Of a DNA stretch of 34,249 nucleotides, positions 1 to 34,249 are shown one piece after another. The stretch spans positions 1-34,249 of the forward strand of contig CANQGD010000017.1 of the NCBI GenBank assembly GCA_947601445.1. The letters are read 5' to 3'. The notes under the pieces were generated by a model. It saw only the letters and a list, made by a program, of their open reading frames with translations, had not been told where the DNA came from and ran no database searches. Numbering within the stretch: position 1 is the stretch's first letter; every line of letters begins with the position of its first letter. Source of the stretch: an uncultured Clostridia bacterium. Its GTDB lineage: Bacteria; Bacillota; Clostridia; Christensenellales; CAG-314. Position numbers and translations under genes: made by a program.

Positions 1-19
1 GAACGCATAAGTTAAGCTG

Positions 20-39
20 CCGAGGGGTTCTCCCCTCGG
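20..39. other. Perfect GC-rich stem-loop at the left edge
   Basis: An 8-bp perfect stem (20-27 pairing with 32-39) encloses a four-base loop. No clear T-run follows on either strand, so it is not an obvious intrinsic terminator. It may close the 3' end of a transcript from outside the window. It lies beyond the downstream end of the leftward restriction gene, so it could also mark that transcript's end. Confidence 0.5.
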
Positions 40-80
40 TGGGCTTTATAATGAAATCTTTGGGGCGATACCTGCCTTGC

Positions 81-109
81 TTGATTTTCGTATGGGTTTA
101 TGGTATAAT
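81..109 (+). promoter_or_regulatory. Sigma-A-type promoter pointing into the 3' end of the restriction gene
   Basis: TTGATT at 81-86, a 17-base spacer and TATAAT at 104-109 form a near-consensus promoter with predicted start near 116. It reads rightward, against the leftward restriction gene ending at 185. Only a 23-codon frame (117-188, ATG about one base after the predicted start) follows before the convergent gene. An imperfect inverted repeat (124-131 with 146-153) lies just downstream. It could produce a short leaderless peptide, or antisense RNA over the restriction gene; both are inference. Confidence 0.55.
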
Positions 110-184
110 GAAGGCAATGAACAGGAATTTTAGCGGAGAAGTAAGAAAATTCCCATGTTTAAGCGTTTCGCCGTTAAATAGAAT

Positions 185-1138
185 TTAGTTCCATTTGCAA
201 TTTATTGCAATAATTGTAGTCGGCATTCCAATAATTTGAATATCAAACTTCAAACTTGGCTCGACCATCGTTGCCGCATTGTGAATCCGAAAACTGAATT
301 GCCAACCGCCATCTAAATATAGCTCAACAGTATTGGTACTATTCGGCTTATAATCAAAAGAAACAATCCGTGTGGGCAAGCAAGCCACGGGGACAACGAT
401 TTTAGGCTTAATAGACCGCGCCGAGCGATTTAACTGCCCGTGCATATTATAAGTTTGAATTTGAGTTAATCGCCTTGTATCAATACTTATTACTTTGTAA
501 AAATCAAATTCGCCTAAAAGATATTCCACCATTTTTCTCGGCACAGTAGAATCCAACGAATTACACCTATTTACTTCCGCAACGAAAGCGTTAAGAAGGG
601 GGATATAAATGCGCTTATCTTTGTCAATCAGGTCATGCCATGCGTGTCCTAAATGTTTTTCTCTTTCCAAAAGGTCAAAGATAGGTGCAATACTTTTCCA
701 ATAATCATTTGAGCAAGGAATGCCATACCACTTCGCACCGAAGTCTAACTTCTTGGCAAGGCGGCTATGCTTAACTGCAAAATGGTTGTGCTTAATACTC
801 AATCCAATCTCCCATTGAACATCTTTGCGGGAAATAACAATATCGCGCACATCACCTTCCTTTCCCTCTTTATCTGTTTGAATTTTAATCGAAAGAATAT
901 CTTCGCTACGCTCGATAATCATCGGCTCCATATCAAAGATAGTAGCCACCGCCGCCTTTGCGCTTTCAGTTAAAATGGACTGTAATTCAGGACTGACTGA
1001 CTCCCAAGCATGGAGGGCGGCAAAATAAGCACTATTTTGCTCAATGACTGCTTCCCGAAAACGATGAATTTCTTTCGATAATGTAATCAAACAAATATAT
1101 TCATAAGCACGCCCTTGATTATTACTCTGTTCGCTCAT
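185..1138 (-). CDS. haeIIIR: HaeIII-like type II restriction endonuclease (GGCC)
   Basis: A 317-residue protein I recognise as the HaeIII restriction endonuclease family. The N-terminus (SNNQGRAYEY) matches my recollection of R.HaeIII, and the next gene upstream is a close match to M.HaeIII. The expected activity is cleavage of unmethylated GGCC in double-stranded DNA. The ATG lies four bases after the methylase stop. Its purine-rich ribosome binding site (complement of TACCCCCTT around 1142-1150) overlaps the end of the methylase gene, so translation is probably coupled and the methylase is made first. No controller (C) protein gene is visible. The gene is more AT-rich than its neighbours and contains no GGCC, which suggests transfer as a cassette. 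The frame is intact, so the enzyme is probably active. Sequence specificity is inferred from family resemblance, not shown. Confidence 0.88.
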   Translation of the reverse strand: MSEQSNNQGRAYEYICLITLSKEIHRFREAVIEQNSAYFAALHAWESVSPELQSILTESAKAAVATIFDMEPMIIERSEDILSIKIQTDKEGKEGDVRDIVISRKDVQWEIGLSIKHNHFAVKHSRLAKKLDFGAKWYGIPCSNDYWKSIAPIFDLLEREKHLGHAWHDLIDKDKRIYIPLLNAFVAEVNRCNSLDSTVPRKMVEYLLGEFDFYKVISIDTRRLTQIQTYNMHGQLNRSARSIKPKIVVPVACLPTRIVSFDYKPNSTNTVELYLDGGWQFSFRIHNAATMVEPSLKFDIQIIGMPTTIIAINCKWN

Positions 1139-1141
1139 ATT

Positions 1142-2140
1142 TTACCCCCTTGCGGTCAAAACGTCTTTGATTGCGACTGCAACCTCATAAGCAAGATGAA
1201 CAGGAACGGCGTTCCCTATCATTTTATAGGCATCGTCTGTATCGTTATATACGAATTGGAACGAATCGGGAAATCCTTGTATTCGCGCAATTTCCCTAAT
1301 TGTCATCCTGCGATATAAATCTTCCTTGCCCTTAACGAACTCCCGTTTATTTTGACTAATGAAAACCATTTTCGGTGCTTGCGGGTGAATTTGACACTGA
1401 CGTCCCGATGCTTGAACTGTGAATGCTTGTTCGTCCCAAGACTTTACACGATTTCGGCTCATAAAAATGGGAGAAAATGCGCCCGTAAAATATTCATTAT
1501 TGTTGATTGCTTTGGGATTATGAGAATTGTGTGGTCCCGCAGGAACGGCAGTTTCTTGCAAATCCCATATCGTATCCCGAAGCGTCAATTTCAATTTGTC
1601 ACCTTGCGTAGACCCCCGAGGAAAAATGAAATCAATATCCAAATCTTCTCGGAAACCAATGTAAAATACGCGACGACGCTCTTGCGGAACGCCATAATTC
1701 TTTGCGTTTACCAATGAAAGAGTAACACGATAGCCACTTTCTTTGAACATTGAAAGAATTTGCTTGACGGCGTATGAATGCCTTGATGCAAGCATTCCGC
1801 TTACATTTTCAGCTAAAAAGAATTTCGGTCGAACAGTTTTCAAAATGCGAATGTATTCATAAAACAGCTTTCCGCGGGCATCCTCAATTCCGCGCAAAGC
1901 ACCTGCTTCCGACCAAGATTGACAGGGCGGACCGCCGATAATGCCGTCCACCTCTTTGGGAAAAATACTTTCATCGAGATTACGAATGTCGCCTTTTACT
2001 AAATTCGTCTTGGGGTGATTAAGGATATAAGTCTGCCATATTGTAGGGTCATATTCGTTTGCAATCGGGATTTCAAAACCCGCCCGCTCAAATCCTAAAT
2101 CAAGACCACCACAGCCACTAAATAGACTAATAACTTTCAT
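1142..2140 (-). CDS. haeIIIM: HaeIII-like DNA cytosine-5 methyltransferase (GGCC)
   Basis: A 332-residue C5-cytosine methyltransferase that should methylate cytosine in GGCC and protect the host from the adjacent nuclease. Motif I ([11 protein letters not shown], about residues 7-17) binds S-adenosylmethionine. Motif IV (GGPPCQSWS) carries the catalytic Cys73. Motif VI is FFLAENV, motif VIII is [12 protein letters not shown] and motif X is GNAVPVHLA. The target-recognition stretch ([11 protein letters not shown] and HPQAP, about residues 240-256) is essentially that of M.HaeIII as I remember it, which is the basis for the GGCC assignment. It is first in a two-gene minus-strand operon. The promoter lies at 2172-2200 and a weak AAGGG-type binding site precedes the ATG. 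The frame is complete, with no missing motif. Confidence 0.93.
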
Positions 2141-2171
2141 AAGTAACGCCCTTTTATTTCTCTTATACTTA

Positions 2172-2290: not shown

Positions 2291-2297
2291 TAAAACC

Positions 2298-2324: not shown

Positions 2325-2442
2325 AATTGCCATTTTTAGGTTTATGACTTTCGGCGCAACATTTCAAATTGTTTTTTACGATTAACCTTAAAATTTATTT
2401 TCGCCGCGTTTGCGATTGCGTGCTGAGATTACAAACAGGTTG

Positions 2443-3280: not shown

Positions 3281-4927
3281 ATGTTCAAAGTAAAAATGAA
3301 TGGCAAGGAGACGATTCTTACCGAAAAAAAGCCGATACTCGATCTTTTGGATGATTGCGACAAACGATATGTCGTTGCAAAAGTCAACAACCGCCTGAGA
3401 GAATTGACTTATGAGCTTAGTTTCGATTCGGAAGTGGTGCCGTTGGATTTGACCTCATCGGACGGAGTAAAGGTGTACGAAACCTCTTTCCGTTATTTGT
3501 TGGCAATGGCATTTCACAATTTATATCCCGATTATCAGATAAAAATAAGTTACGCCGTATCCCGCGCATTGCTTATAACGCTTGTCCAACCCAAAATGAC
3601 TATGGATCGCCGTATGATAAACGACGTAATCGCCGAGTTGGATCGGTTGGTTGCCGCGGATATTCCCTTTGAACGCACAGTTATGAGCAAAGAAGACGCT
3701 TATGACTACTTTGTGGCGCAGGGTCAGCAGGACAAGGCGGACGCGTTGCAGTACCGTCCGGAAAAAACCTGTCATTTTTACCGTTGCGGCGACTATCTCA
3801 ATTATATGTACGGCTATATGGTGCCGTCCACAGGTTACATAAAGACCTACAAACTGTTTGCTTATGACGGGCATATGATTGCGCAATATCCGCGTTATGA
3901 GGCGGGCGGCATTATTCCCGAGTTCAAAGACGAACCCACTTTCAGCAAGGTGCTCAAACGCGCTCATCGTTGGGCAACCATTTGCAATGCGGAAATCATT
4001 TCCAAAATGAACGACCACGTAAACGAATCCACCTATGTGGATTTCATAAATATGAACGAAACGTTGCACAACGATATGCTTCACGAATTGGGCGACCGTA
4101 TCGCCGAAGATATTGAAAATATCCGTCTCATTTGTATTGCGGGACCGTCCAGTAGCGGCAAAACCACATTCAGCAACAGACTGCGTATAGAGTTGATGTC
4201 GCGCGGCATCACTCCGTTGCGCATATCTTTGGATATGTACTACAAAGACCGTTCGCAAATTCCGTTAGACGAATACGGACAAAAGGATTTTGAACATATC
4301 GACGCATTGGATGTGGAATTGTTCAACCAAAATATGCTTGCGCTTATCAACGGCGAGGAAACGGAACTGCCAAACTATCAATTTGAACAAGGACGCGCCG
4401 AAAAGGGCATTATTACAAAGATCGGTCCCGATACGCCCATTATCATCGAGGGAATACACGCCTTGAACGACAAATTGAGCTATCTGATACCCAAGCACCA
4501 AAAGTTCAAAATCTACATCGCGCCGCAATTTCAGATCAACATCGATTATCACAATCCCATCAGCTACACGGATATTCGCCTGTTGCGCCGCATAGTGCGT
4601 GACAAAAAATATCGCGGTGCAAGCGCCGAGCGTACCCTCGATATGTGGCCGTCCGTTCGCCGCGGCGAATTTAAGTGGATTTATCCCTATCAGGAAGGGT
4701 GCAACTATGTGTACAACTCCGCGCTTACTTATGAGCTTTGCGTTCTAAAAAAATATGCGTTGCCCGCTTTGCAAGAGGTAAAACAGGACAGCCCGCATTA
4801 TATCACCGCAAACAGACTTATCAAGTTTTTAAAATATTTCAACGAAATGGACGACAAGTGGGTCCCCTGCAATTCGCTGCTCAGAGAATTTATCGGAGGC
4901 AGCTGTTTTGCCGAAGTAGATGAATAA
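3281..4927 (+). CDS. TGS-domain nucleoside (uridine-kinase-like) kinase
   Basis: A 548-residue protein of the family that joins a TGS domain and a threonyl-tRNA-synthetase-like second domain to a C-terminal uridine kinase/phosphoribulokinase domain. The N-terminal 60 residues have TGS character. The P-loop GPSSSGKTTFSNR lies near residues 287-299, followed by the kinase segment SLDMYYKDRSQIP and later DIRLLRRIVRDKKYRG. The likely reaction is ATP-dependent phosphorylation of a nucleoside such as uridine; the substrate cannot be fixed from sequence. The start at 3281 has AAGGAG eight bases upstream and is preferred to an in-frame ATG at 3254. A strong terminator follows at 4986, so it is a single-gene transcript. 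Confidence 0.88.
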   Translation: MFKVKMNGKETILTEKKPILDLLDDCDKRYVVAKVNNRLRELTYELSFDSEVVPLDLTSSDGVKVYETSFRYLLAMAFHNLYPDYQIKISYAVSRALLITLVQPKMTMDRRMINDVIAELDRLVAADIPFERTVMSKEDAYDYFVAQGQQDKADALQYRPEKTCHFYRCGDYLNYMYGYMVPSTGYIKTYKLFAYDGHMIAQYPRYEAGGIIPEFKDEPTFSKVLKRAHRWATICNAEIISKMNDHVNESTYVDFINMNETLHNDMLHELGDRIAEDIENIRLICIAGPSSSGKTTFSNRLRIELMSRGITPLRISLDMYYKDRSQIPLDEYGQKDFEHIDALDVELFNQNMLALINGEETELPNYQFEQGRAEKGIITKIGPDTPIIIEGIHALNDKLSYLIPKHQKFKIYIAPQFQINIDYHNPISYTDIRLLRRIVRDKKYRGASAERTLDMWPSVRRGEFKWIYPYQEGCNYVYNSALTYELCVLKKYALPALQEVKQDSPHYITANRLIKFLKYFNEMDDKWVPCNSLLREFIGGSCFAEVDE

Positions 4928-8938: not shown

Positions 8939-11900
8939 ATGACTGATTTTCGCATAAACAAAAAAATCGCCATTGCGGTGCTTGTTTTACTTATATTTGT
9001 AAGTCTTACGGCGCTTTCGGGATGCGATTCATCTCAAACTTTGGATGTGACCTATACGGGAGGCAATATTCCCTTAGGAGGAGAAATCGACCGATCCGAT
9101 CTTGTCGTCGGAATTATCGGCGGATGGGGAACGCACAGACTCAGAGACGACCAATACGAGTTAAGCGATTTTGACAGTTCGACTATCGGCGAAAAAACCG
9201 TAACGGTTACATACACAGACGGAGATAAAACGCTTACCGCAACTTTTATCGTTACCGTTGTGGAAAGTTCTTCTCCCGCAAAACTGTCTCGCATAGAAGT
9301 CGAGTACAGCGGCGGAGATATTTTTGTCGGCGGCACGCTTGACAACGACAAAATCACAGTAAAAGCGTTTTACAGAGACGGTAGCAGTAAAACCGTTACC
9401 GGATGGACGCTGGACTTAGACAGCTCCAAGCCCGGGGATAAGACCGTAACGGTATACTATACCGAAGGCGAACAAACGGTCACGGATACGTTTACCGTAA
9501 AAATTGTGGAAGATAATTCTCCCGCAAAACTGTCTCGTATAGAAGTAGAGTACAGCGGCGGAGATATTATTGTGGGCGGCACGCTTGACAACGACAAAAT
9601 CACGGTAAAAGCGGTGTATACCGACGGCAGCAGCAAAACCGTGTCCGGATGGACATTGGGCGACTTTGACAGCGCCTCCGCCGGTACCAAAACCGTAAAA
9701 GTATCTTACACCGAAAACGGCGAGAGCGCGTCCGCAACATTCGAAGTGCAAGTAAAGTTTGCAAAGTTGATTCGTATCGAAGCAAGCTACAACGGCGGAG
9801 AATTGGTGATCGACGAAAAAATCAATCCCAACGAAGTGGCTGTTGTCGCCTACTTTGAGGACGGCTCGTACAAAAGCGTAACGGGTTTCGTTTTGTCACC
9901 GGAAAGCAGTCATACCGCAGGCAGGTTGGATGTTACCGTAACGTACACCGATACTCAAAGCAATACCACGGCGACAACCGTATTCTACGTAAATGTGCAG
10001 GCGGCGAAACCGACTGCTCTCCACATCGAAACTTCCGACTCTCCCGTATATTTGGGAGACGAAGTTCGCCCCAACCTTACTGTAACCGTGTCTTACGACG
10101 ACGGCAACAGCAAAATCATTACTGACTATACCCTTTCCGACGAAACGTTTGACACATCGGGCAAATTTACCGTCACTGTATCCTATACCGTGGGAGAAAT
10201 CAAATTGCAAGCCGAGGCGACTTTCAATGTACTGTCTTTGGTTTTGGAAAAAATAGAGGCGACCTACACGGGCGGAGATTTGGAAATAAACGGTTCCTTA
10301 GACAAAGACAAACTTTCCGTTACCGCCTTTTACTCCAATCAAAAGACCAAACAAATCACCGAAGGGTATACTTGTAATGTGGATACTTCCGTTGCGGGAG
10401 AAAAGCAAATAACCGTCGAATATTCCGAAAACGGCGTTACCGTTTCCGCTTCGGTAACATGCCGTGTTGTGGCGCGTGTAACCACGCTTACGGCAGAATA
10501 TCGCGGTGCAAATCCGCATTTGGGCGATAAGTTGAATGTAGACGAGATAGATATAAAAGTAGCGTTCAATGACGGCGTCGTTTGGCCGTTGAAAGGCAAC
10601 AGCCCCGGTGTGGAATTGTCTCCTACCGTATTTGATCAAGAAGGATTGCAAACGGTAAACGTAACCTATACCGTACCGACCGACCCGACCATTTATCGTA
10701 CGGGAAGCGCGCAGGATACGTTCAGCGTCATAGTGTTAGCCGCAGAAAAAACTTTGCAAAAAATAGAAGCTGTCTATACCGGCGGCAATATATTCGTAGG
10801 CGCTCAACCTGATAAAAGCAAGTTGACGGTAACAGCGTATTACAGCGACGGTTCTTCGAATACGGTTACCAACTTTACGGTAGGTACCGTGGACAGCAGT
10901 TCGGTCGGAACAAAGCAGTGGGAAATTTCCTATACCGAGGGAGAAACCAAAACCGCTTATGTCACAATAACAGTTGTGTCGCAACAAAGTTCAAGCGAAC
11001 CTGTCGAGGGAAAATACGACGTAAACACAATCAAGCAAGAAAACTTGTCTATTCATTTTCTTATGTTGGGTAACAAATACACAGGCGACAGCGTTTATAT
11101 CAAGGCGGGCGATACCGATATTTTGATTGACGCCGGTTCGCGCTACGATAGTGCGTCAACCATAACGAATTATGTAAATCAATATTGTTCCGACGGCAAA
11201 TTGGAGTATGTTATTGCGACGCATGCGCATCAGGACCATATTGAGGGATTTGTGAACGGAAGTGGAAACAACGGCGGAGTACTCGACAGGTTTAAGGTCG
11301 ATACAGTTATTACCTATGCTCGAAAGAAAACAACTTCTAATATTTCCAGTAAATTCACCGACAAGTTGAATACACTCAAAGAACAGGGTGTAAATGTATA
11401 CACGGCGAACGACTGCATTAACAACGCCAACGGCGCACAAAAGGAATTTACCCTTGCCGACGGAATTACAATGGAAATTCTCGACCAAAAGTACTATCGT
11501 CAAAGCGCAAGTAACGACAACAATTATTCCGTTTGCCTTATGATAAAGCAAGGGGAAAACAATTATCTGTTCACGGGCGACTTGGAAGACGACGGCGAAG
11601 AGTCGCTTGTGCAACTCAACCCGAATTTGCCGAAAGTGAAACTGTGGAAAGGCGGTCATCATGGCTCGTACACCGCGGGCAGCACGACGCTTCTGAAAAA
11701 GATACAACCCGAAACAGTGTGCATTTGCACTTGTATGGGCACAATTGAATATACAAAGACTACAACGAGTAATCACATGTTCCCCGCGCAGGAGTTTGTC
11801 GAGCGCGTTTCGCAATATACCGACAGAGTGTACTGCACGTCCGACGGCACAAAATATTCGAGCAGCAGCGCTTGTATTCCCGCCAACGGCAACATCGTGT

Positions 11901-12054: not shown

Positions 12055-13263
12055 ATGGCAGATTCGCAAAAGGATATTTTCGACAAAGTAACAATTTTCG
12101 GCAAACGCACCTCGATGACAAAACGTCAATTCAAGGTGCTTTGCGTATGTATGACGGTTATTGTGATTGTCGGCGTGTTCGCATTGGTGATTGCGGGGTA
12201 TTTTTCGGGTTGGTTCGGCGGAGAGTATGGGCTGCACCGATATGACAAACGTTATTACAACATAAAATCCATTGCCGCCGAACAGCTATCGATACATTTT
12301 TTGCAGATGGAAAAGGGCAACGGAGACTGTATATTTGTCAAGGCGGGCGACACCGAAGTATTGATTGACGCGGGTTCTCAACCTGTCGGCGCGGCGTCTA
12401 TAAGGCAATATATCGACAGATTTTGTCAGGACGGCGTTTTGGAATATGTCGTTGTAACGCACGGAGACAGCGATCATTTGGCAGGTTTTGTGGGTACATC
12501 GGGCATAAAAGGTATTTTGGAACGTTACAAAGTAGGCAGAATAATACAATTTGCGCGCACCAACTCGCAAGGAGGTTTGTTTGCCGACTATTGCGCTGCG
12601 CGGGATAAGGCAATTGCCGACGGCACCGCTTTTTGTACCGCCTTGGATTGTTGCAAAGAAATTCGCGGCGCTCAACGCTCGTATACTCTTGCAAACGGCG
12701 TAACAATGGAAGTTTTGTACCAAGAGTTTTACGAAACTTCCACAAGCAATGAAAACGACTATTCCGTTTGTCTGCTGTTTACGCAGGGAGACAACCGTTA
12801 TTTGTTTACAGGGGATTTGGAACGTGCGGGCGAAAAATCTTTGTTGGAATGTAATCCCGAGTTGAAGGATGTTACTTTGTACAAAGCGGGGCATCACGGC
12901 TCTGCCGATTCGGGCAGCGGAATATTGCTCAACAAAATAAGACCGCAGTACGTTTGTATATGTTGTATAGCCGGCAGCACGGAATACACGCAGAATCTTA
13001 ACAATACTTTCCCCACGCAGGATTTTTTGCGCCGCATTGCTACCTATACGGACAACGTGTATGTGACAAACTGTGCTTACACGGAACAAAACGAATGGGG
13101 ACGGTTTACCGACGTGGAATACGGCAAACTTAACGGAGATATAGTGTTTGCTTGTACCGACGGCAGAATCTCAATGTATTTTTCCGAAAACAACGACAAA
13201 CTCAAAGACAGCGAGTGGTTCAGAAATAATCGCGAACTTCCCGCACAGTGGAGTGAATCATGA
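12055..13263 (+). CDS. Membrane-anchored ComEC-type MBL protein
   Basis: A 402-residue paralogue of the MBL part of the preceding lipoprotein. Residues 1-22 are cytoplasmic and basic, residues 23-45 are a single hydrophobic anchor, and the rest should be outside the cell. The metal motif is THGDSDH, the HxDxDH form common in ComEC-like enzymes, followed by FTGDLERAG and KAGHHGS. Alignment with the neighbour is continuous from the start of the MBL domain to the C-terminus, including the CIC cysteine cluster and MYFSENN tail, so it is a tandem duplicate. The start at 12055 has only a weak AGG upstream; an in-frame TTG at 12028 is less likely. Its TGA overlaps the aroC ATG by the ATGA pattern. 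The substrate is unknown. Confidence 0.82.
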   Translation: MADSQKDIFDKVTIFGKRTSMTKRQFKVLCVCMTVIVIVGVFALVIAGYFSGWFGGEYGLHRYDKRYYNIKSIAAEQLSIHFLQMEKGNGDCIFVKAGDTEVLIDAGSQPVGAASIRQYIDRFCQDGVLEYVVVTHGDSDHLAGFVGTSGIKGILERYKVGRIIQFARTNSQGGLFADYCAARDKAIADGTAFCTALDCCKEIRGAQRSYTLANGVTMEVLYQEFYETSTSNENDYSVCLLFTQGDNRYLFTGDLERAGEKSLLECNPELKDVTLYKAGHHGSADSGSGILLNKIRPQYVCICCIAGSTEYTQNLNNTFPTQDFLRRIATYTDNVYVTNCAYTEQNEWGRFTDVEYGKLNGDIVFACTDGRISMYFSENNDKLKDSEWFRNNRELPAQWSES

Positions 13264-14306
13264 TAACATATTCTTTTTTCGGCGCTTCTCACGGAGACGG
13301 ATACGGCGGCACCATTTGCGGTTTGCCGGACGGGTTTGTATTTTCCGTGGAGCAGGTCAACGAAATTCTTGCGTTGCGCAAGCGCGGTTATGGCAGAAGT
13401 CAACGCCAAACAATGGATGACAAGGTTCGATTTGAAGGTTTCGAATCCGACTTGGTGACGGTACACGGAGAATTGCGTTTTTTTATAGCGAATTTTTCCG
13501 TGGAAGCACGTCCCGAAATCACCGCATTGCGCAGCGGACACAGCGATGTGGTCGGCAGAGCGCGGTTTCCGCAATTGACCGTGAGACAAATCGCCGAACA
13601 GACAAGCGCTCGAAATAGCGTTTGTTATACGGTATTGGGCGCAATATGCAAACAATTATTGGTTGAAAAGGGTATATTTACATATCACTATGTGGAAAAA
13701 ATCGGCGGTATAGCCTCGCGAAACCGTTACCGTTTCGGACTTTCCGAAAAAGAACCTTATTTTCAGACACTGCATTGTCCCTGTCGTTACGCGACGGGAT
13801 TGATGTGTACGGCTATCGACAACGCGCGAGAGCAGGGCAACAGCTTGGGCGGTGTTGTGGCGGTGGGCGCAACGGGTATTCCTATGGGTATAGGAGAAAT
13901 TTTCCCCTATGACAAGCGTCTGGATGCTGTAATTGCGGCAAATTTGATGGGAATACCGTCCGTAAAGGGTGTGGCTTTCGGAATCGGTGACAAGTATGCG
14001 AGTTTGGACGGTGTTTCCGCTCATGACGAATTGAGTTTATCAGAGGAAAAAATAGTTTACTCCACAAACAAGTGCGGCGGTATTGTTTCCGGACTCACCA
14101 CGGGACAGGATATACTCTGTCATTTGACAGTGAAACCCGTTCCCACGGTAAAGGGCGTTTTTACTGTGGACAATATCACTCACGAAAAGGTTTTGCAGCA
14201 TTACGAACGGGCGGATACCTGCGTGGTTCCCAACGTGGGAGTTATAGCGGACAGCGTCCTGGCTTTCGTTTTGGCAAATCAAATGATTGAACAACATTTA
14301 ATATGA
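13260..14306 (+). CDS. aroC: Chorismate synthase (divergent)
   Basis: A 348-residue chorismate synthase, converting EPSP to chorismate with reduced FMN. Recognisable signatures are FGASHGDGYGG (first catalytic His near residue 11), LRSGHSD (second His), QTSARNSVCYTVLG, GGVVAVGATGIPMGIGE, LMGIPSVKGVAFGIG and GGIVSGLTTGQ. Several positions differ from the usual consensus. The standard RPGHAD is RSGHSD, and the C-terminal RHDPCVVPRA is RADTCVVPNV, keeping Asp but losing the His of that motif. The two catalytic histidines are present, so it is probably active. The ATG overlaps the stop of the MBL gene, and its own TGA overlaps the aroB ATG, which makes translational coupling likely on both sides. 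Confidence 0.9.
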   Translation: MITYSFFGASHGDGYGGTICGLPDGFVFSVEQVNEILALRKRGYGRSQRQTMDDKVRFEGFESDLVTVHGELRFFIANFSVEARPEITALRSGHSDVVGRARFPQLTVRQIAEQTSARNSVCYTVLGAICKQLLVEKGIFTYHYVEKIGGIASRNRYRFGLSEKEPYFQTLHCPCRYATGLMCTAIDNAREQGNSLGGVVAVGATGIPMGIGEIFPYDKRLDAVIAANLMGIPSVKGVAFGIGDKYASLDGVSAHDELSLSEEKIVYSTNKCGGIVSGLTTGQDILCHLTVKPVPTVKGVFTVDNITHEKVLQHYERADTCVVPNVGVIADSVLAFVLANQMIEQHLI

Positions 14307-15229
14307 AACAACTTGGCGACTGCATTTTGAAATACGGCAAATTTCGTATGTCCGACTTTGCCGCAAGTTACATTGTTACAGACAAAAATATTGCCGCGTT
14401 GTACGGTATAACGGGCGATAACGTATATTTTTTGCCGCGTGGCGAAGAGGCAAAAAGTTTTTTTCATGCGGAACAATTGTGCAAGTGGTTGCTTAAACGC
14501 AACGTGCGCACGGATTCGTTGGTTGTTGCGCTCGGCGGCGGCAGTATAGGGGATACGGTAGGGTTTGTATGCGGCATTTTTAAGCGCGGCGTAGAATTGT
14601 TGCATGTTCCTACAACGCTTGTGGCAATGGTGGATAGCGCTATCGGCGGAAAAACGGCGATAGACCTTGACGGCGTAAAAAACGCTGTCGGAAACTACCT
14701 GTTCGCCGATACGCTTATAGACGTGGATTTTTTACAAACATTAGATGACAAACAGATGCTTAACGGTATGGGCGAAATATTCAAATATCGCATGTTGAGC
14801 GACGAAATCGATCGAGTTTTTCGAGACGGAAATTTGAACGATACAATCTGTGCCTGCGCCGAATTTAAGCGCGGTATCTGCATTGCCGATCCCTATTGTC
14901 AAGGCGTGCGCAACAGTCTGAACTTCGGACATACATTGGGACATGCAATGGAATTGTCCTTGGGTATTCCTCACGGAATAGCCGTTGCAAACGGAATATA
15001 TTACGAGACGCTGCTTTCCTGCAAATTGGGTCTGTGTTCTTGCAAATATTCGGATAAGTGGCGAGAGGAAATTTTCCGACAGTTTGAGATATTCCCCGTT
15101 GCGGAGGTTTTGCCGTTGACGCTTCAAGACAAAAAGAACGTCGGCAATGACGTAAGTTTTGTTTTGCCGCCCGCTTTTGAAACGGTGCGTATACCTTACG
15201 AACGAATTAAAGAGTTACTTTTGAAATGA
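14303..15229 (+). CDS. aroB: 3-Dehydroquinate synthase
   Basis: A 308-residue AroB, closing DAHP to 3-dehydroquinate with NAD and a divalent metal. GGGSIGDTVGF (about residues 76-86) binds NAD. VPTTLVAMVDSAIGGKTA follows. The metal ligands are the Glu in GMGEIFKY and the histidines in NFGHTLGHAME and GIPHGIAVANG. It is about 40-50 residues shorter than common AroB proteins, mainly at the N-terminus and C-terminal domain, but all catalytic motifs are there. It is coupled by ATGA overlaps to aroC upstream and to the fused aroA-aroE gene downstream. Confidence 0.93.
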   Translation: MKQLGDCILKYGKFRMSDFAASYIVTDKNIAALYGITGDNVYFLPRGEEAKSFFHAEQLCKWLLKRNVRTDSLVVALGGGSIGDTVGFVCGIFKRGVELLHVPTTLVAMVDSAIGGKTAIDLDGVKNAVGNYLFADTLIDVDFLQTLDDKQMLNGMGEIFKYRMLSDEIDRVFRDGNLNDTICACAEFKRGICIADPYCQGVRNSLNFGHTLGHAMELSLGIPHGIAVANGIYYETLLSCKLGLCSCKYSDKWREEIFRQFEIFPVAEVLPLTLQDKKNVGNDVSFVLPPAFETVRIPYERIKELLLK

Positions 15230-17226
15230 TAGCTTTCAACGAAAAATTTCATTTATCCGACAATTTTTTTTGCAGCGACAAATCATTGACGCATCGAGCG
15301 TTTATTCTTGCCGCCATTGCCGACGGAGAATGTCGTTTGGAAAACGTCACTTTTTCCCGCGATATTTGTTCAACCGTCAATGCGTTGCGTGTTTTGGGTG
15401 CAAAAATTCGCATTGAAGGCAGTTGTGCAACCGTCACGCCGATAGTAAAACCGCCTTTGAACGAGGTGACATTGGATTGCGGCAACAGCGGAACAACGGC
15501 GCGATTGCTTGCAGGATTGGTCGCGGGTTTGGGTGTAAAAGCGCGCTTCGTGGGAGATGAAAGTTTGTCTGCCCGCCCAATGAAAGCCGTGGTTGAGTTT
15601 CTGCGAGCGCTCGGTGCCGACATATCTTTACAACAAGGTTGTTTGTTTGTGTGTCGCGGCGGAGTTCTTACGGGAAAAAACCTGTATGCCGAAGTAAGTT
15701 CCGCCCAAGTAAAAAGTGCTGTTGTGCTTGCGGGACTTTTTGCAAAAGGAATAACGCGGTATGCGGAAAAGTTGTCTACGCGCAATCACACGGAAATTAT
15801 GCTTGCAAATTTCGGCGCCAAGGTATCAACCTTTTGCGAAAACGGGCGCAGCGTTGTGACGGTGGAGCAAAGCCGTCCGCACTCTTTTTGTATCAAGTTG
15901 CCGCGCGATCCGTCCGCCGTGGCATATTCGGTTGCGTTGGCATTGTTAAAAGAACAAAACGTCACTTTTACCGATGTGTTGCTCAATCCCGCGCGCTTGG
16001 GATTCTACGATGTTTTGCGACAAAGCGGCGCCAAAATATCCTATACCGATCTGCACACCGTCGCAGGCGAGCCGGTTGGAAATATTGTGGTGCAGCGCAG
16101 TCGCTTAACGCCCTTTTTCGCGTCGGAGCAGGATTCCGTCAATGGTATCGACGAATTGCCTTTGTTGGCTGCAATGGCGCTGTTTGTGGCGGGAGAACAC
16201 CGATTTGAAGGGGTGGCGGCGCTAAGATACAAGGAATGCGACCGAATAGAGGCAATCGCGGATATTATATGTGTGTGCGGACAAACGTACAGCTATGACG
16301 GCAACTCTCTTACCGTCCGTTCAAACGGTATTGTTCCGTTGAACAGACGGTTCAGAACATTCGGCGATCACCGTATCGCAATGTGCTGCGCCGTGCTGTC
16401 CGTTGCCGTCGGTCGCGGATGTATTGACGGCGCGCCGTTCGATGTTTCCGACCCGAATTTTTTGCAGTCTTTGGGTATCAGTCCCCTCAAATTGGGACTT
16501 ATAGGTTCGGACATAAAACAAAGCGTATCACCGCGCCTGCATACATATCTGGCTATGTGTGCGGGGGTGTGTTGCAGTTACGATATTATACAGTTAAGTC
16601 GCGACGTTTCGGACGACGAGCTTTTGCGGATTATCGACAAATACGACGGTCTCAATATAACTATGCCCTTCAAAACGCGCGTTGCGCAACTGTTGCATTC
16701 CGAAATTCCGGCTGTCAACACTGTAGGTAAAAATATTGTACCACAATCCACCGACGGTTACGGTTTGATACATCCTTTGCAAAAAGGCGGTGTGGATTTT
16801 GTCGGGCAACCCATGTGGATAGTGGGCGCGGGCGGTGCAGCCGAATCGTGCGTGAGAGAATTGTCGAAATACGGCTGTAAAATGCAGATTATCAACAGAA
16901 CCGAGTCGCATGCCGAGGCGCTGCGCAACAAGTACGATTTACCGCGGCAAGTATCTGATCCGATGGGTGTACTTACGTTTATCCCCGCGTGTCAATTCGA
17001 GCGTGAGTTGATATTGCCCGAAAGTTGCAAGTTTGTGTTAATTGCCGCATATATGGGCAGCAGTAACATCCGTCTTCAAGCCGAAAAGCGCGGGTTGACC
17101 GTTGTGGACGGTTTGGAAATGAATTACTATCAAGGCACGGTAGGGTTTTCTTTGTGGACAGACACGCCCGTACAGGATAATTACGAAGATTATCTGAAAT
17201 ACATTGAAGAATTTGATTATATTTGA
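15226..17226 (+). CDS. aroA-aroE: EPSP synthase-shikimate dehydrogenase fusion (AroA-AroE)
   Basis: A 666-residue bifunctional protein in one uninterrupted frame. Residues 1-420 are EPSP synthase: SDKSLTHRAF, CGNSGTTARLL, GDESLSARPM, RDPSAVAYSVA, RYKECDRIEAI and FGDHRIAM are all present. Residues 421-666 are shikimate dehydrogenase: SVSPRLH at the shikimate site, NITMPFK with the catalytic Lys, STDGYG, the nucleotide-binding GAGGAAES, and NRT for NADP preference. The two halves catalyse the dehydroshikimate to shikimate step and the shikimate-3-phosphate to EPSP step; the kinase between them is the separate aroK. The EPSP half is of normal length and the dehydrogenase half slightly short (about 246 residues). 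Fusion of these two enzymes outside the fungal AROM protein is unusual to my knowledge. Confidence 0.93.
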   Translation: MIAFNEKFHLSDNFFCSDKSLTHRAFILAAIADGECRLENVTFSRDICSTVNALRVLGAKIRIEGSCATVTPIVKPPLNEVTLDCGNSGTTARLLAGLVAGLGVKARFVGDESLSARPMKAVVEFLRALGADISLQQGCLFVCRGGVLTGKNLYAEVSSAQVKSAVVLAGLFAKGITRYAEKLSTRNHTEIMLANFGAKVSTFCENGRSVVTVEQSRPHSFCIKLPRDPSAVAYSVALALLKEQNVTFTDVLLNPARLGFYDVLRQSGAKISYTDLHTVAGEPVGNIVVQRSRLTPFFASEQDSVNGIDELPLLAAMALFVAGEHRFEGVAALRYKECDRIEAIADIICVCGQTYSYDGNSLTVRSNGIVPLNRRFRTFGDHRIAMCCAVLSVAVGRGCIDGAPFDVSDPNFLQSLGISPLKLGLIGSDIKQSVSPRLHTYLAMCAGVCCSYDIIQLSRDVSDDELLRIIDKYDGLNITMPFKTRVAQLLHSEIPAVNTVGKNIVPQSTDGYGLIHPLQKGGVDFVGQPMWIVGAGGAAESCVRELSKYGCKMQIINRTESHAEALRNKYDLPRQVSDPMGVLTFIPACQFERELILPESCKFVLIAAYMGSSNIRLQAEKRGLTVVDGLEMNYYQGTVGFSLWTDTPVQDNYEDYLKYIEEFDYI

Positions 17227-17235
17227 GGAAACGAA

Positions 17236-17676
17236 ATGAGAATACTACTGCTTAACGGGGTCAACCTCAATATGTTGGGTAAGCGCAACCCCGAATTTTA
17301 CGGTTATTTTACGCTCGAAGAATTGGAACGGCAGGTAACCGTATATGCCGAAAAGAAAGGCGTACTGATTTATTGCCGTCACAGTAATTGCGAAGGAGAA
17401 TTGGCGGATATTTTGCAGCAGACAGACTGCGATGCCGTTATTTTCAACGCCGGAGCGTACAGTCATTACAGTTATGCGTTGAGAGATTGTATAGAGTGTC
17501 TCGGTGTACCCGTCGCGGAAGTGCATCTGTCTGACATTGAAAAACGAGAATCTTTCAGACATACGGATGTGCTGACAGATGTATGCGTTGCGCGTTTTAT
17601 GGGAAAAGGATTGCAAAGTTATTTCGATGCAGTTGATTATTTGTTGAGTATCGACGGTTCCAAACATGAGGGCTAA
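17236..17676 (+). CDS. aroQ: 3-Dehydroquinate dehydratase, type II
   Basis: A 146-residue type II dehydroquinase, dehydrating 3-dehydroquinate to 3-dehydroshikimate and normally a dodecamer. LNGVNLNMLGKRNPEFYG holds the catalytic Tyr on its mobile loop. NAGAYSHYSYALRD carries the Asn and His of the active site. AEVHLSDIEKRESFRH is the substrate-phosphate-free pocket typical of the family. A GAGGAAA site lies just before the ATG, ten bases after the fusion gene. Normal length, all key residues present. Confidence 0.94.
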   Translation: MRILLLNGVNLNMLGKRNPEFYGYFTLEELERQVTVYAEKKGVLIYCRHSNCEGELADILQQTDCDAVIFNAGAYSHYSYALRDCIECLGVPVAEVHLSDIEKRESFRHTDVLTDVCVARFMGKGLQSYFDAVDYLLSIDGSKHEG

Positions 17677-18195
17677 ATGAATAACATCATTCTCATCGGA
17701 TTTGCCGCAACCGGCAAGTCGACCGTAGGAGCATTACTTGCGCGCAAAATGTGCAAGCAATTTGCAGATACGGATAGCTTAATAGAATGTGAAATGTCGA
17801 TGTCTGTTTCTCAAATATTCGAAAAGTTCGGGCAACAATATTTTCGCGATAAGGAAAGCGCAGTATTGTTTCGTTTGAAACAAACGGACAACTCCGTCAT
17901 TTCCTGCGGCGGCGGAAGCGTGTTGTCTCCTTTCTTTACGGATTTTGCTGCAACGGGTACGGTAGTATGGTTGCGAGCGTCGGTGGACGCGGTGCAAAAC
18001 AGAATGAATGGCGGCAGACCATTATTCGACGGTTTGTCGCGCGATCAATTACAAAATCATATTCGCAGTCGCGAGCAATTGTATAAGATATTTTCCGACA
18101 TTGTTATCGACACCGACGATAAGACCCCCGAACAAGTTGCGGAACAAATTTATTTACTGCTGCAAAAGTTTACGACGGAAAATTTGTTGAAATAA
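17677..18195 (+). CDS. aroK: Shikimate kinase
   Basis: A 172-residue shikimate kinase, phosphorylating shikimate at O3 with ATP. The P-loop GFAATGKSTVG is at residues 8-18, FADTD has the shikimate-binding Asp, FRDKES has the conserved Arg and Glu, SCGGGSVL is the glycine-rich loop and GGRPLF carries the lid Arg. The ATG follows the aroQ stop directly, with GAGGG at the end of aroQ as binding site. It is the last gene before a terminator. Together with the preceding genes it completes the path from DAHP to chorismate; no DAHP synthase is in this window. Confidence 0.94.
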   Translation: MNNIILIGFAATGKSTVGALLARKMCKQFADTDSLIECEMSMSVSQIFEKFGQQYFRDKESAVLFRLKQTDNSVISCGGGSVLSPFFTDFAATGTVVWLRASVDAVQNRMNGGRPLFDGLSRDQLQNHIRSREQLYKIFSDIVIDTDDKTPEQVAEQIYLLLQKFTTENLLK

Positions 18196-21287: not shown

Positions 21288-21653
21288 ATGAATTTAACGG
21301 CAAAAAACAAGTGTATTTTGGCGGCATTTTCCGCCACGGCGGGTTTTGTCAACGGTTTTTTGGGCGGCGGCGGAGGCGTTATCATTGTGGCGCTGCTGCT
21401 TGCCGTAATAAAACTGCATCAGAAATATGCCCAAGCTACCGCTCTTTTGGTGGTTTTGCCGCTTACGGCAGTGAGTGCGGCGGTGTATTTGTGGAAGGGC
21501 AGCGTTGATTGGATTCCCACTCTTTGGGCGACTCTCGGCGTAGTTGTAGGCGGTGCGGCGGGAGCGTTGTTGCTGAGCAAACTCAAAGGCAACGTTGCGA
21601 AAATTATTTTTGCATTGGTGTTGATAGCCGGCGGCGTCAAGATGTTTTTTTAG
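21288..21653 (+). CDS. TauE/SafE permease, first half
   Basis: A 121-residue membrane protein with about four helices and the glycine-rich signature GFLGGGGGVIIVALLL near its start. This is the N-terminal half of a TauE/SafE (DUF81) transporter, a family that exports sulfite, sulfoacetate and related anions and normally has about 250 residues and eight helices. It ends in TAG; nine bases later, in the same reading frame, the second half begins. AGGA lies nine bases before the ATG. Probably works as a heterodimer with the next gene. The substrate cannot be told. Confidence 0.82.
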   Translation: MNLTAKNKCILAAFSATAGFVNGFLGGGGGVIIVALLLAVIKLHQKYAQATALLVVLPLTAVSAAVYLWKGSVDWIPTLWATLGVVVGGAAGALLLSKLKGNVAKIIFALVLIAGGVKMFF

Positions 21654-21662
21654 GAGGAGCTC

Positions 21663-22076
21663 ATGCAGGTTTTTTTGTTGATATTGTTCGGATTTATCGC
21701 CGGGATTTTCGGCGGAATGGGTATGGGCGGCGGTACGGTATTGGTTCCGCTTTTGTCCTTTCTCGATCTTCCGCAAAAAACCATACAAGCCATCAATCTG
21801 ATCGGTTTTTTACCGATGTGTTGCGTAGCGCTTGTTTTCCACGCCAAAAACAAACTTTTGAAACCTGTCGGTATCGGGTGGCTTATTGTTCCCGCTTTGG
21901 CGCTTGCGGTTGTCGGCGCGTTGGTCGCCGATTCGGCAAGCAACGATGTGTTGAGATATTGTTTTGCCGCGTTTTTGCTTACTGTGGGCGTGTGGCAGCT
22001 GATTGTCGCGATCAAATTTGCGATTGCTCAAAAAAAGCAATCCCGTTTTGACGACAACGATACAAAACGGCAATAG
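21663..22076 (+). CDS. TauE/SafE permease, second half
   Basis: A 137-residue membrane protein with about four helices and the signature GFIAGIFGGMGMGGGTVLVPLL, homologous to the first half as expected for the two internal repeats of TauE/SafE proteins. A strong GGAGGAG site lies directly between the upstream stop and this ATG, so it is set up for independent translation. The polar C-terminal tail is cytoplasmic. Cotranscribed with the first half. Confidence 0.82.
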   Translation: MQVFLLILFGFIAGIFGGMGMGGGTVLVPLLSFLDLPQKTIQAINLIGFLPMCCVALVFHAKNKLLKPVGIGWLIVPALALAVVGALVADSASNDVLRYCFAAFLLTVGVWQLIVAIKFAIAQKKQSRFDDNDTKRQ

Positions 22077-27304: not shown

Positions 27305-28645
27305 ATGTCTAAACAAATTATGGGCGAATTTCTTTCCTCGCTGCGACACGCGCACGGTTATACTCAGCAGCAAGTCGCAGACAAATTGAACGTCTCCAAC
27401 CGAACCGTTTCCGCTTGGGAGAGGGACAACGCGGTGCCGGACGTTTTGTTGTTGCCGGCAATTGCCGAGTTGTACGGCGTAACGGTAGACGAATTGCTGC
27501 GCGGAAGCCTCACCGAGCGCGACTCCGACAAACCGATGTTTTCCAAACAGACCGAGTTGTCCATGCAACGCAAAAAGGTCTCCGAATATATTTTGCGGGC
27601 TTATATATTATTGGGCGTAGCCGTATTGGGTCAGATATTGCTTTTTACGGGTTATCTCAACAGCAGGATAAATACCGATGATGTTGTGTACGTCGTTTGG
27701 ACGGTATTCGAATATGTCGGACTTGCCCTGACGGTAATCTGTACCGCGGTATTGTTCGCGCTTTGGAAAAGCACCGAGAGTACATTGCCGCCGACAGAAG
27801 ACAACGAGGAGCTTTTGTACAAACTGTACTCTCCCGTCATTGTATATTTGTATATCTGGTCTTTTATTTCTTTGCTTTGTTCGCTGACGCTGTCGTTGTT
27901 GGTCGGTAAATTGATTGCCGTCACCGTCGGCATAATTTCTTATGTAATTTTCGGCGTTTGCGCAAGTGTATGCGGAATGGTACTGCATACGTATGCCGCA
28001 ACTAAGTGGAATAAGTCGAATAGGGGCACGATCGCCAAGCTGTGGACGGCGGCTATGGTAACGACCGCTTTCTGTATTGCCGTATTTTCCGTACTGATTG
28101 TTGCCTCCGATAAAATTTGGCAAAATTTGATTGTATATGCCGCCGTGACATACGCGTTTGCGTATGTGTTTTTGCTGTTCGTAATGTTGTTCGAACGCGT
28201 TTATGTCTGCAAGTATTTCAAAGCGGACGCGCAGCTGTTGTACTGCGAGATAACATCTGTTGCCGTGACGTTGACGGCGTTGATCTTTATCGCCGTATCT
28301 TTGAATTTTCTCGCCGTAAACGCTCCTATTACCGCCGTGTCGCTCACCGTTTGTATATCCTCGCCCATACTTATCATTTTGGGGTGCGTACTTCCGCATA
28401 TCGATCTTAAACGGCACGCCTCCGACTCGTTTAAAAGCATAATGAAACGCAACGCCCGTCTATATCGAAAAATTTGGCTATGGGGTTTGATTCCCCTCGG
28501 CGTAGGCTGTGTTTTTTGCGGTGTGGGATTTTATTTTTCCGTTCCCGTTTTCTTCGCCGGAGTGGCGATTTTGTCGGCTTCCGTTGTCGCGTGTACGACT
28601 ATTTGTCTTGCCAAACGCGAAAGACCCGACCGGCCGCAGGATTGA
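27305..28645 (+). CDS. XRE-family regulator fused to a multi-helix membrane domain
   Basis: A 446-residue protein. Residues about 7-62 form a helix-turn-helix of the Cro/CI type (YTQQQVADKLNVSNRTVSAW is the binding unit). After a short polar linker come about nine hydrophobic helices up to residue 435, ending in a basic tail. Membrane-bound XRE regulators of this plan occur in clostridia and often control their own transcription or respond to membrane state; the signal is unknown. AAGGAGG lies ten bases before the ATG. It appears monocistronic; rnpB follows with its own promoter. Confidence 0.78.
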   Translation: MSKQIMGEFLSSLRHAHGYTQQQVADKLNVSNRTVSAWERDNAVPDVLLLPAIAELYGVTVDELLRGSLTERDSDKPMFSKQTELSMQRKKVSEYILRAYILLGVAVLGQILLFTGYLNSRINTDDVVYVVWTVFEYVGLALTVICTAVLFALWKSTESTLPPTEDNEELLYKLYSPVIVYLYIWSFISLLCSLTLSLLVGKLIAVTVGIISYVIFGVCASVCGMVLHTYAATKWNKSNRGTIAKLWTAAMVTTAFCIAVFSVLIVASDKIWQNLIVYAAVTYAFAYVFLLFVMLFERVYVCKYFKADAQLLYCEITSVAVTLTALIFIAVSLNFLAVNAPITAVSLTVCISSPILIILGCVLPHIDLKRHASDSFKSIMKRNARLYRKIWLWGLIPLGVGCVFCGVGFYFSVPVFFAGVAILSASVVACTTICLAKRERPDRPQD

Positions 28646-28697: not shown

Positions 28698-29029
28698 GTA
28701 AGAGACAGCCGGACGGTTGCGTGGGCACGTCTCACGAGGAAAGTCCGAGCACCACAGAGCAAGAGTGCAGGCTAACGGCCTGTGAAGGCGACTTCAAGGA
28801 AAGTGCAACAGAAATATACCGCAACGGCAATGTTGTAAGGGTGGAAATGCAGGGTAAGAGCCTACAAACGTTTTGGTGACAACGCGTTCATGTAAACCCC
28901 ACTCGGTGCAAGAAATGAGATAAAATGCCTGCTCGGCATCTCGACATATTCGCTGGAGACTGTCGGTAACGACAGCCGTAGACAGATAACCGTTCAAGAC
29001 AGAACTCGGCTTACAGACTGAACTCTTAC
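28698..29029 (+). ncRNA. rnpB: RNase P RNA (bacterial, probably type A)
   Basis: The catalytic RNA that matures tRNA 5' ends. The diagnostic conserved region GAGGAAAGTCCGAGC is at 28736-28750, with ACAGAAATATACCGC downstream, the AGATAACCGT element at 28984 and ACAGAACTCGGCTTACAG near the 3' end. Outer bases 28698-28704 pair with 29023-29029 to form P1, which sets both ends. Length is about 332 bases. The GGTAAGAGCC element at about 28853 suggests the ancestral type A fold. It contains one of only four GGCC sites in the window (28777), part of a GCAGGC-loop-GCCTGT stem. Confidence 0.96.
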
Positions 29030-29032
29030 AAG

Positions 29033-31686: not shown

Positions 31687-31687
31687 A

Positions 31688-32422: not shown

Positions 32423-32441
32423 TTTTGCTACGAGGTGAAAT

Positions 32442-32792: not shown

Positions 32793-32821
32793 ATCGGCTT
32801 TATGCCCTCTTGCTTTTGTAA

Positions 32822-32850
32822 AATACCGATTGCCGTTTTGCAACGGTATT
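32822..32850. other. Stem-loop ahead of the hydrolase gene
   Basis: Nested arms (32822-32828 with 32844-32850, then 32830-32833 with 32840-32843, one bulged A) form an 11-bp hairpin with a six-base loop. Neither side has a clean T-run. It may end the ecf-truA transcript or structure the leader of the hydrolase. Confidence 0.5.
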
Positions 32851-32896
32851 GCGGACAAACAATTCAAAAAAAACATCGAACTGTTTCGGAAAAATT

Positions 32897-33805
32897 ATGT
32901 CAAAAAAATCTTTTGCGGCACAAATTACGGCATTGATATTACGTTTCAAATTCAAACGTCCGCGCAGTGCAAGCGTCGCCAAATTGACTAAACAATTTGA
33001 AAAACAAAAACTTCGCGGAGAACAGCCCTATGTGATTCCCAAGAAAATAAAATTCCATTGCAATGTATGTAAATCGGTATTCCGAGGTATGGATATTTAC
33101 ACCTTGACGGGCAGTGCCGCGACTGATTTGACCGTACTTTATTTCAGCGGCAGCGGATATGTACACGGTCCGATGAAATATCATTGGATTATGTGCGACC
33201 GTATTGCAAAGCAATGCAATGCCAAAATTATTTTACCTATATATCCGCTTGCTCCCTTTCACAGCTATCGCGATCTATATGAAGTAATGGTTCCTATGTA
33301 CAACAAATATGTTGCGGATAATCCCGACGAACGTATTATTTTTATGGGCGATTCGGCGGGCGGCGGACTTGCGCTTGCATTTTACGAGTACGCGATCGAA
33401 CGCGGATTGCGTCTGCCGGAGAAAGTGGTGGCGGTTTCGCCATGGGTGGATATTGCAACGGACAATTCCGAAATAAAAAAATTGGCAAGGAAAGACCCTA
33501 TGATTGTACAACATTGCGCGCAGTTGTGGGGCAGACTGTGGGCAGACGGCGGCGATGTTTCCGATTTTATGCTCAGTCCCATTCACTACGCCAATACGGA
33601 AAAACTGACCAATGTTCATATAATTGCGGGAACGGACGGTATTTTGTTTCCCGATATAAAATTATTCTTCGACAAAATAAAAAACAATCCCGGCTGCACG
33701 TTTACGGTCGGTCCGCGTATGAACCATGATTACCCGTTGTATCCCTCGGTGATTCCCGAAGTCAGAAAAGAGCAAAAACACATTATGGATTTAATAACCC
33801 ATTAA
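32897..33805 (+). CDS. Alpha/beta hydrolase, hormone-sensitive-lipase-like
   Basis: A 302-residue esterase of the alpha/beta hydrolase-3 group. The nucleophile elbow is GDSAGGGLA, the acid is in GTDGILFPD and the His is in NHDYPLYP, giving a complete Ser-Asp-His triad. The oxyanion-hole segment (FSGSGYVHGP) replaces the usual HGGG, so the pocket differs from the typical member. There is no signal peptide; the first 30 residues are basic and partly hydrophobic. The start at 32897 has a weak GGAAAA before it; an in-frame ATG at 32849 is within the hairpin. Substrate unknown. Confidence 0.8.
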   Translation: MSKKSFAAQITALILRFKFKRPRSASVAKLTKQFEKQKLRGEQPYVIPKKIKFHCNVCKSVFRGMDIYTLTGSAATDLTVLYFSGSGYVHGPMKYHWIMCDRIAKQCNAKIILPIYPLAPFHSYRDLYEVMVPMYNKYVADNPDERIIFMGDSAGGGLALAFYEYAIERGLRLPEKVVAVSPWVDIATDNSEIKKLARKDPMIVQHCAQLWGRLWADGGDVSDFMLSPIHYANTEKLTNVHIIAGTDGILFPDIKLFFDKIKNNPGCTFTVGPRMNHDYPLYPSVIPEVRKEQKHIMDLITH

Positions 33806-33888
33806 ATATTGCAAATATTTTTGCCGAAAAATTATTTCGGATATTATGCCGTAAAACGTCGATGTAAAGTTTTCCGTCTTTGTCAGAC

Positions 33889-33918
33889 TTGATAAAACTT
33901 TTTTCACAGATATATGAT
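33889..33918 (+). promoter_or_regulatory. Promoter in the right-hand gap
   Basis: TTGATA (33889-33894), an 18-base spacer and TATGAT (33913-33918), with start predicted near 33925. No protein gene with a ribosome binding site follows before the terminator at 34110. Confidence 0.5.
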
Positions 33919-33924
33919 ACGGCA

Positions 33925-34140
33925 AGTGGTTGTTGTCGTATTGCCAAACGTTGCGGCGTTTGAAAACGGCTTTATGCGTCTTTGTGTTTTAGCGGAAGAC
34001 AAAAGCGTATGTTGCCGTTTGACGCGCGGAACAAACAACATATATTTTAATATTTTGTGCAAAAAACAGCGAGAAAAGTTTGTGCGTCTTTCATAGGGAT
34101 TCTATGAATAAGCGGTTTGGCGGTTAGTCAAACCGCTTTT
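33925..34140 (+). ncRNA. Candidate small RNA with long hairpin
   Basis: The stretch between the promoter at 33889 and the terminator at 34110 folds into an imperfect hairpin over 33956-34025. Helices 33956-33959 with 34022-34025, 33964-33970 with 34014-34020 and 33974-33985 with 33999-34010 (11 of 12 pairs) are separated by small bulges, with a 13-base loop. A further small hairpin is at 34092-34106. A 60-codon open frame covers the region but has no ribosome binding site. I do not recognise a known RNA family, though a long rod of this size recalls 6S RNA. Proposed from structure only. Confidence 0.35.
34110..34138 (+). terminator. Intrinsic terminator in the right-hand gap
   Basis: A perfect 10-bp stem (34110-34119 with 34129-34138) with a nine-base loop, followed by a short T-run. 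It would end the candidate small RNA transcript. Confidence 0.75.
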
Positions 34141-34142
34141 AA

Positions 34143-34243
34143 TATGTCCCCAAGTGGGCATATTTTCTTTCCAAGGAAAGCAGGATAAGGATTGTGGGCA
34201 GGTCTGCCCCAATCGATCCTCAAAAGCGGGAAACCCGCCTTTT
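34143..34243. other. Cluster of four stem-loops at the right edge
   Basis: Four consecutive hairpins lie in about 100 bases: 34143-34162; 34167-34180; a longer bulged stem over 34182-34220 (34182-34186 with 34216-34220, 34190-34199 with 34205-34214); and 34222-34243, whose last stem is followed by a T-rich tail and could be a terminator. The density is more than expected by chance and might be a structured RNA, leader or riboswitch of a gene beyond the window. I do not recognise its class. Confidence 0.4.
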
Positions 34244-34249
34244 ATGCCA

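Follow-up and report, generated by a model that had tools for sequence, protein, structure and literature searches.

Near-absence of GGCC from the genomes of a Clostridia genus, probably maintained by recurrent restriction, with a HaeIII-type cassette as one passing carrier

The stretch analysed here (the window) comprises 34,249 nucleotides from base 1 of contig C17 (CANQGD010000017.1) in the draft genome of an uncultured Clostridia bacterium of the Christensenellales (GCA_947601445.1; 1.606 Mb in 59 contigs, 92% complete), and it opens with a HaeIII-type restriction-modification cassette. The tetranucleotide GGCC is nearly absent from the window, from the rest of this genome as far as sampled and from most other species of the genus. 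We favour, with a probability of roughly 60%, the explanation that GGCC restriction, recurring among the strains and in the gene pool of this genus, has kept the chromosome nearly free of the word, and that the cassette of the window is one passing carrier.

Only four GGCC sites are present in the window, at 4647, 10584, 28632 and 28777, exactly as counted in an earlier note made from the sequence. The 80 to 100 sites expected by that note agree with base composition (94.7), with 100 dinucleotide-preserving shuffles (96.7, standard deviation 9.8) and with a maximal-order Markov model based on trinucleotides (92.9, z -11.6), which also supplies the expectation for the GGCC ratios of genomes (observed/expected) given below. 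The gap had also been described as specific to GGCC, with CCGG and GCGC plentiful. This stands for GCGC (205 vs 208.7) but not for CCGG (57 vs 182.6, z -12.5), and since CTAG is low as well (1 vs 18.4), the specificity is not complete once trinucleotides are allowed for. A count of all 16 palindromic tetramers in 20 further stretches, which come from contigs C1-C7 and make up 399 kb or one quarter of the genome, gives GGCC as the strongest depletion by z, with 63 sites against 1001 expected (0.063), CTAG at 0.049, CCGG at 0.40 and GCGC normal. The erasure therefore reaches beyond the cassette, as had been proposed, and is genome-wide as far as sampled. The cut-off for avoidance used by Rusinov et al. 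(2015; PMC4687349) is 0.78, on a measure different from the Markov ratio.

Codons and proteins bear the imprint of prolonged selection against GGCC, in keeping with the earlier proposal of a long life under a GGCC-cutting enzyme. Open reading frames (ORFs) of at least 100 amino acids were taken as genes, rather than the output of a gene caller. In 433 kb of this genome, the glycine codon GGC precedes a codon starting with C 20 times vs 401 expected, and the alanine codon GCC follows a codon ending in G only 13 times vs 605, the most depleted context. Before C, glycine codon usage moves mostly towards GGA (0.51 vs 0.25-0.30 elsewhere) and GGG (0.19 vs 0.06-0.10) rather than to GGT, so several escape routes are used. 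Outside these ORFs, GGCC occurs 8 times (9 in the site list) vs 89 expected. The dipeptide Trp-Pro cannot avoid GGCC, because it must be encoded by TGG-CCN, and it is the most depleted of the 399 dipeptides with an expectation above 20, in this genome (15 vs 37.2, Poisson p 3.2e-5) and in 23 congeners, the relaxed species G021 described below being left out (22 vs 75.7, p 3.5e-13). The reverse pair Pro-Trp is found 39 times vs 37.2 and 64 times vs 75.8, respectively, and G021 itself has too few Trp-Pro to judge (4 vs 7.0). Across eleven genomes of the order with GGCC ratios of at least 0.5, partly picked for high counts, Trp-Pro stands at 40 vs 39.5 and ranks 224 of 394, and in nine with GGCC below 0.3 at 3 vs 13.3; G228 (0.60) and G059 (0.43) belong to neither set.

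Of the 67 GGCC sites that remain in the 433 kb, 15 encode Trp-Pro, and two of the window's four are among them. These two, at 4647..4650 and 10584..10587, both read TGG-CCG, and no synonymous change can remove such a site. The third (28632..28635) lies in Arg-Pro codons, CGG-CCG, where synonymous removal is possible. The fourth (28777..28780) falls inside a bacterial class A RNase P RNA (28701..29030, forward strand; Rfam RF00010, 242.7 bits), where it overlaps the 3' side of a stem, with three bases in the stem and one in its loop according to the structure line; the earlier remark that pairing limits change at this site holds.

Selection, and not decay of 5-methylcytosine, removed the sites, since the loss extends to every codon frame and none of the other dipeptides is as strongly depleted as Trp-Pro. 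Loss by mutation, through deamination of methylated GGCC or Vsr mismatch repair, would have had its means in this genome, which has a cytosine-5 methylase and, elsewhere, a Vsr gene beside a second one. The position methylated in GGCC is the inner cytosine (GGmCC). However, the deamination products GGTC/GACC are depleted (0.62) and not enriched, the alanine GCC context after G is one that GGmCC deamination cannot remove silently, and congeners with no detected cytosine-5 methylase show the same pattern. We find this mutational origin hardly credible and rejected it on the GGTC/GACC depletion and the codon context. The Vsr mismatch endonuclease gene lies on contig C27, directly before the gene of the second cytosine-5 methylase, and a Vsr-type gene also adjoins a methylase in the congener G013.

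The HaeIII-like nuclease and methylase announced by the earlier note are both confirmed by sequence. The endonuclease gene (185..1138, reverse strand, 317 amino acids) matches the family PF09556 RE_HaeIII over the full profile (1-298 of 298, 461.5 bits). The methylase gene (1142..2140, 332 amino acids), on the same strand and 3 bp apart, matches PF00145 (338.7 bits), and its best PDB match is M.HaeIII (1dct), end to end over query residues 1-327 with 430.7 bits. The likeness to the HaeIII system includes the full-length family match of the endonuclease and a methylase that matches in its recognition region and is near-identical around MSRNRV and ASGRQCQ; the host differs, and the cassette of the window is known from its sequence. 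No solved structure similar to the window endonuclease was found by sequence. We take the specificity of the HaeIII family to be GGCC, and the window enzyme is accordingly predicted to cut this word. The cassette sits at the start of the contig, whose first 2300 bases contain no GGCC. Its genes had been called AT-rich, which is only mildly the case ([G + C] of 0.397 for the endonuclease and 0.427 for the methylase vs 0.462 for the rest). HaeIII relatives were found at 62 loci, whose hosts include Clostridia, Bacteroidales, streptococci, Neisseria and mycoplasmas, among others. Four plasmid records match as well, of which three span 80% or more of the query, and so does one phage record at 23% identity. 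Such a spread, plasmids included, is expected of a mobile system, and the cassette is probably recent in the lineage.

Could the resident cassette itself have caused the erasure? The presumed specificity of its family fits, and among the 62 HaeIII loci, whose ratios include the cassette and have no matched HaeIII-free control, 50 have an expectation of at least 8 GGCC, with 49 of these below 0.78 and 26 below 0.25. However, only 4 of the 396 order genomes carry HaeIII, including the one studied here and a short fragment, and only one of the 25 genomes of the genus does so (G000, the genome of the window; G-numbers denote genomes of the genus or order, one per species). Moreover, the erasure is similar in congeners without it. 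All 24 congeners measured (9 to 180 kb each) fall below 0.78; 20 of them lie between 0.016 and 0.27, three at 0.38-0.46 and one, G021, at 0.71. Two samples are thin, that of G016 (8.9 kb, two of its four stretches being set aside because of N) and that of G008 (9.4 kb, two stretches that are runs of N being set aside); G054, G057 and G060 yielded nothing but runs of N. Larger samples give 0.018 for G005 (9 sites in 160 kb), 0.052 for G012 (24 in 154 kb) and 0.123 for G015 (42 in 140 kb). Over whole genomes and both strands, GGCC followed by four A/T bases is found 45 times in G000, 22 times in G005 and 26 times in G012, the comparison counts for GCGC being 1707, 2134 and 1869. In the wider order GGCC ratios range from 0.02 to 1.10, so that depletion is common there, not universal. 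As far as the searches tell, in draft assemblies and with a single genome per species, relatives without a recognised GGCC system are equally depleted, and the cassette therefore cannot be the whole reason. The congeners largely refute a causal role for it, which we regard as very improbable.

Nor is avoidance stronger where a system or a methylase is present. Eight congeners without a cytosine-5 methylase by protein or family search have a pooled GGCC of 69/580 (0.119), compared with 289/1052 (0.275) in the fifteen other congeners measured, which have one (for G023 and G024, which were outside the family search, the methylase matches come from the protein search). The two genomes with a recognised GGCC endonuclease are no outliers. 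The second of these is G020, the only one of 61 genomes searched with an endonuclease of the NgoPII family, whose specificity we likewise assume to be GGCC. This family is other than that of the window endonuclease. The NgoPII gene of G020 adjoins an M.HaeIII-like methylase 64% identical to that of the window, so endonuclease and methylase families of the same specificity seem to have been swapped between systems. A system cognate to the avoided site is present in the genome itself (HaeIII type, G000) and in a congener (NgoPII type, G020). That the two carriers among the 25 genomes have endonucleases of different GGCC families supports recurrence.

An absence inherited from an ancestor with a GGCC system, with sites lost once and never returned, is the next possibility to be weighed, and traces of lost systems are documented in the accessible text of PMC4687349. 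In a neutral drift simulation started from G000 (synonymous and intergenic change under a simple base-composition model, with a rough clock), GGCC returns to 0.26 at a fourfold-site identity of 0.86, to 0.57 at 0.62, to 0.70 at 0.48 and to 0.77 at 0.35. The observed fourfold-site identity with G000 is 0.41 for G005 (39 gene pairs), 0.36 for G012 (8) and 0.38 for G015 (48). Synonymous sites are near saturation at these values and GGCC is still at 0.02-0.12, so the absence must have been maintained after the species split. By interpolation, taking half the distance per branch, an inherited absence would have faded to about 0.6 under this model. The relaxed congener G021 lies near the simulated neutral plateau, suggesting that the word can come back. 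We consider inheritance alone improbable.

The spacers of clustered regularly interspaced short palindromic repeats (CRISPR) offer a view of invading DNA. The 132 spacers in the arrays of G000, G005, G018 and G004 contain no GGCC vs 9.7 expected, with CCGG at 10 vs 14.7 and CGCG at 17 vs 20. After removal of near-duplicates (129 spacers), none of 100,000 permutations was free of GGCC. Invading DNA in this genus thus seems to be without GGCC as well. The array of G000, on contig C10, has 42 repeats and 41 spacers and lies near a cas1 gene; no array was found at the cas1 locus of G013, and those of G052 and G043 (7 and 12 spacers) are uninformative, with 0.4 and 0.0 GGCC expected. Scanning viral contigs with spacer-derived patterns identified no phage of the genus. 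Three 18-base matches were dismissed as chance, the full spacers differing at 9-11 of 30 positions, and the viral contigs concerned have near-normal GGCC. A terminase search for prophages was positive in one of 25 genomes, on a 3.3-kb contig with GGCC at 1 vs 12 expected, too little to use.

Under the favoured explanation, GGCC-specific type II systems of several kinds (HaeIII-type, NgoPII-type) would move in and out of strains. A GGCC site would then be costly to the cell in three situations: on arrival of a system, as long as methylation is incomplete; during a lapse of methylation; and after loss of the system, when leftover enzyme cleaves sites that lack the modification. Invaders with the word in their DNA would be cut as well. 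Sites would vanish from chromosomes and invaders alike, through synonymous codons first and then even through Trp-Pro pairs, and the cassette of the window would be one resident and not the origin. The selecting agent is thus probably restriction, recurring at the level of strains. The earlier note had suggested a previous system of the same specificity; the direction is right, but the idea has to be extended to a pressure that recurred or persists throughout the genus. Several observations weigh against this explanation. No recognised GGCC endonuclease was found in 23 of the 25 genomes of the genus, and G012 (0.052) and G015 (0.123) have no match to the methylase families PF00145 or PF01555. 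The carriers G000 (0.063) and G020 (0.099) are not more depleted than several non-carriers, and in G228 of the same order, where HaeIII lies on a 4.3-kb contig, the GGCC ratio over 24 kb is 0.60. GCGC is somewhat low in the 132 spacers too (11 vs 18.8), and spacers, being part of the chromosome, may have lost the word after their capture. Finally, turnover among strains is assumed and not observed, each species being represented by a single genome, and draft genomes can lose accessory islands.

Some of these points would suit a GGCC-cutting system of an unrecognised kind, without a methylase of known type, present in nearly the whole genus, the HaeIII and NgoPII cassettes being incidental. This idea arises from species with no detected methylase being among the most purged. 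It would account for the near-complete erasure in G012 and G015, which lack matches to cytosine-5 or N6/N4 methylases, for an absence maintained with synonymous sites near saturation and for the GGCC-free spacers. However, no candidate gene was found, though no genome-wide search was made for one, and known systems suffice for two genomes. Such an enzyme would also have to spare the remaining sites, whose density per Mb is about 158 in G000 (63 in 399 kb), about 56 in G005, about 156 in G012 and about 300 in G015. We judge it unlikely, though not negligible. Its fuller form, in which nearly all members of the genus would carry an undescribed, methylase-free or unusually modified GGCC-cutting defence that reshapes codons, Trp-Pro and invader DNA, and known cassettes would settle at almost no cost, appears slightly more doubtful still. 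Two specific candidates were also considered. N4 methylases were searched for as PF01555, which has matches in 17 of the 25 genus members; they are missing from G000, G008, G010, G011, G012, G015, G023 and G024, so they cannot explain all cases and were rejected as a general explanation. The Dnd phosphorothioate system is associated with GGCC; the DndE gene was found in none of the 25 genomes of the genus and likewise in none of 14 control genomes.

Restriction-site avoidance is under study in prokaryotes and, more recently, in viruses (PMC4687349; Rusinov et al. 2018, PMC6286503). According to the accessible parts of PMC4687349, of 5162 cases in which the system is present solely in other species of a genus, 18.4% show avoidance, and its authors expect a very slow return of sites. 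Our case resembles theirs in that a type II palindrome is rare with and without a cognate system, same-genus cases included; it differs in being deep in nearly every measured species of one genus, with a proteome that avoids Trp-Pro. Dipeptides are not mentioned in the accessible parts of these two papers. PMC10359461, likewise as far as accessible, reports that target avoidance in plasmids and core genes follows the taxonomic distribution of systems. The avoidance described here also tracks the systems of a wider taxon rather than those of a single genome. However, the main results of that study concern 6-bp targets, with no plasmid-core difference for 4-bp palindromes, whereas ours is a genus-wide 4-bp case. 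A literature search with narrow terms, covering few subscription papers and these in part, returned no account of a GGCC-free genus, nor of site avoidance having cost proteins a dipeptide. That avoidance can exist without a resident system is already published; what is of interest here is how deep it goes and that it leaves a footprint in proteins.

Avoidance is here separated from a resident system, since species with no detected GGCC system stay nearly GGCC-free near synonymous saturation, and what maintains it, be it strain turnover, a mobile gene pool or an unrecognised nuclease, becomes directly testable. The Trp-Pro deficit means that a conflict at the level of DNA reaches into protein sequence. 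In addition, GGCC cassettes would find a cheap landing place in a GGCC-free genome, and this could be why they recur in such lineages.

Other words are also scarce in these genomes. CCGG lies below its trinucleotide expectation in G000 (0.40) and in most congeners (about 0.2-0.7), and several HaeIII-bearing loci of Clostridia have CCGG at 0.04-0.21 together with GGCC near zero. CGCG is nearly erased in single relatives, namely G010 (1/45), G026 (2/50), G034 (1/28), G038 (1/42), G043 (4/40) and G055 (0/17), as is GATC in G051 (1/124) and G067 (0/85). Elsewhere in the window, an EPSP synthase is fused to a shikimate dehydrogenase (15226-17226) within a run of shikimate-pathway genes (13260-18195), and two short adjacent ORFs (21288-22076) match the two halves of the TauE/SafE exporter family with their order reversed (second, then first).

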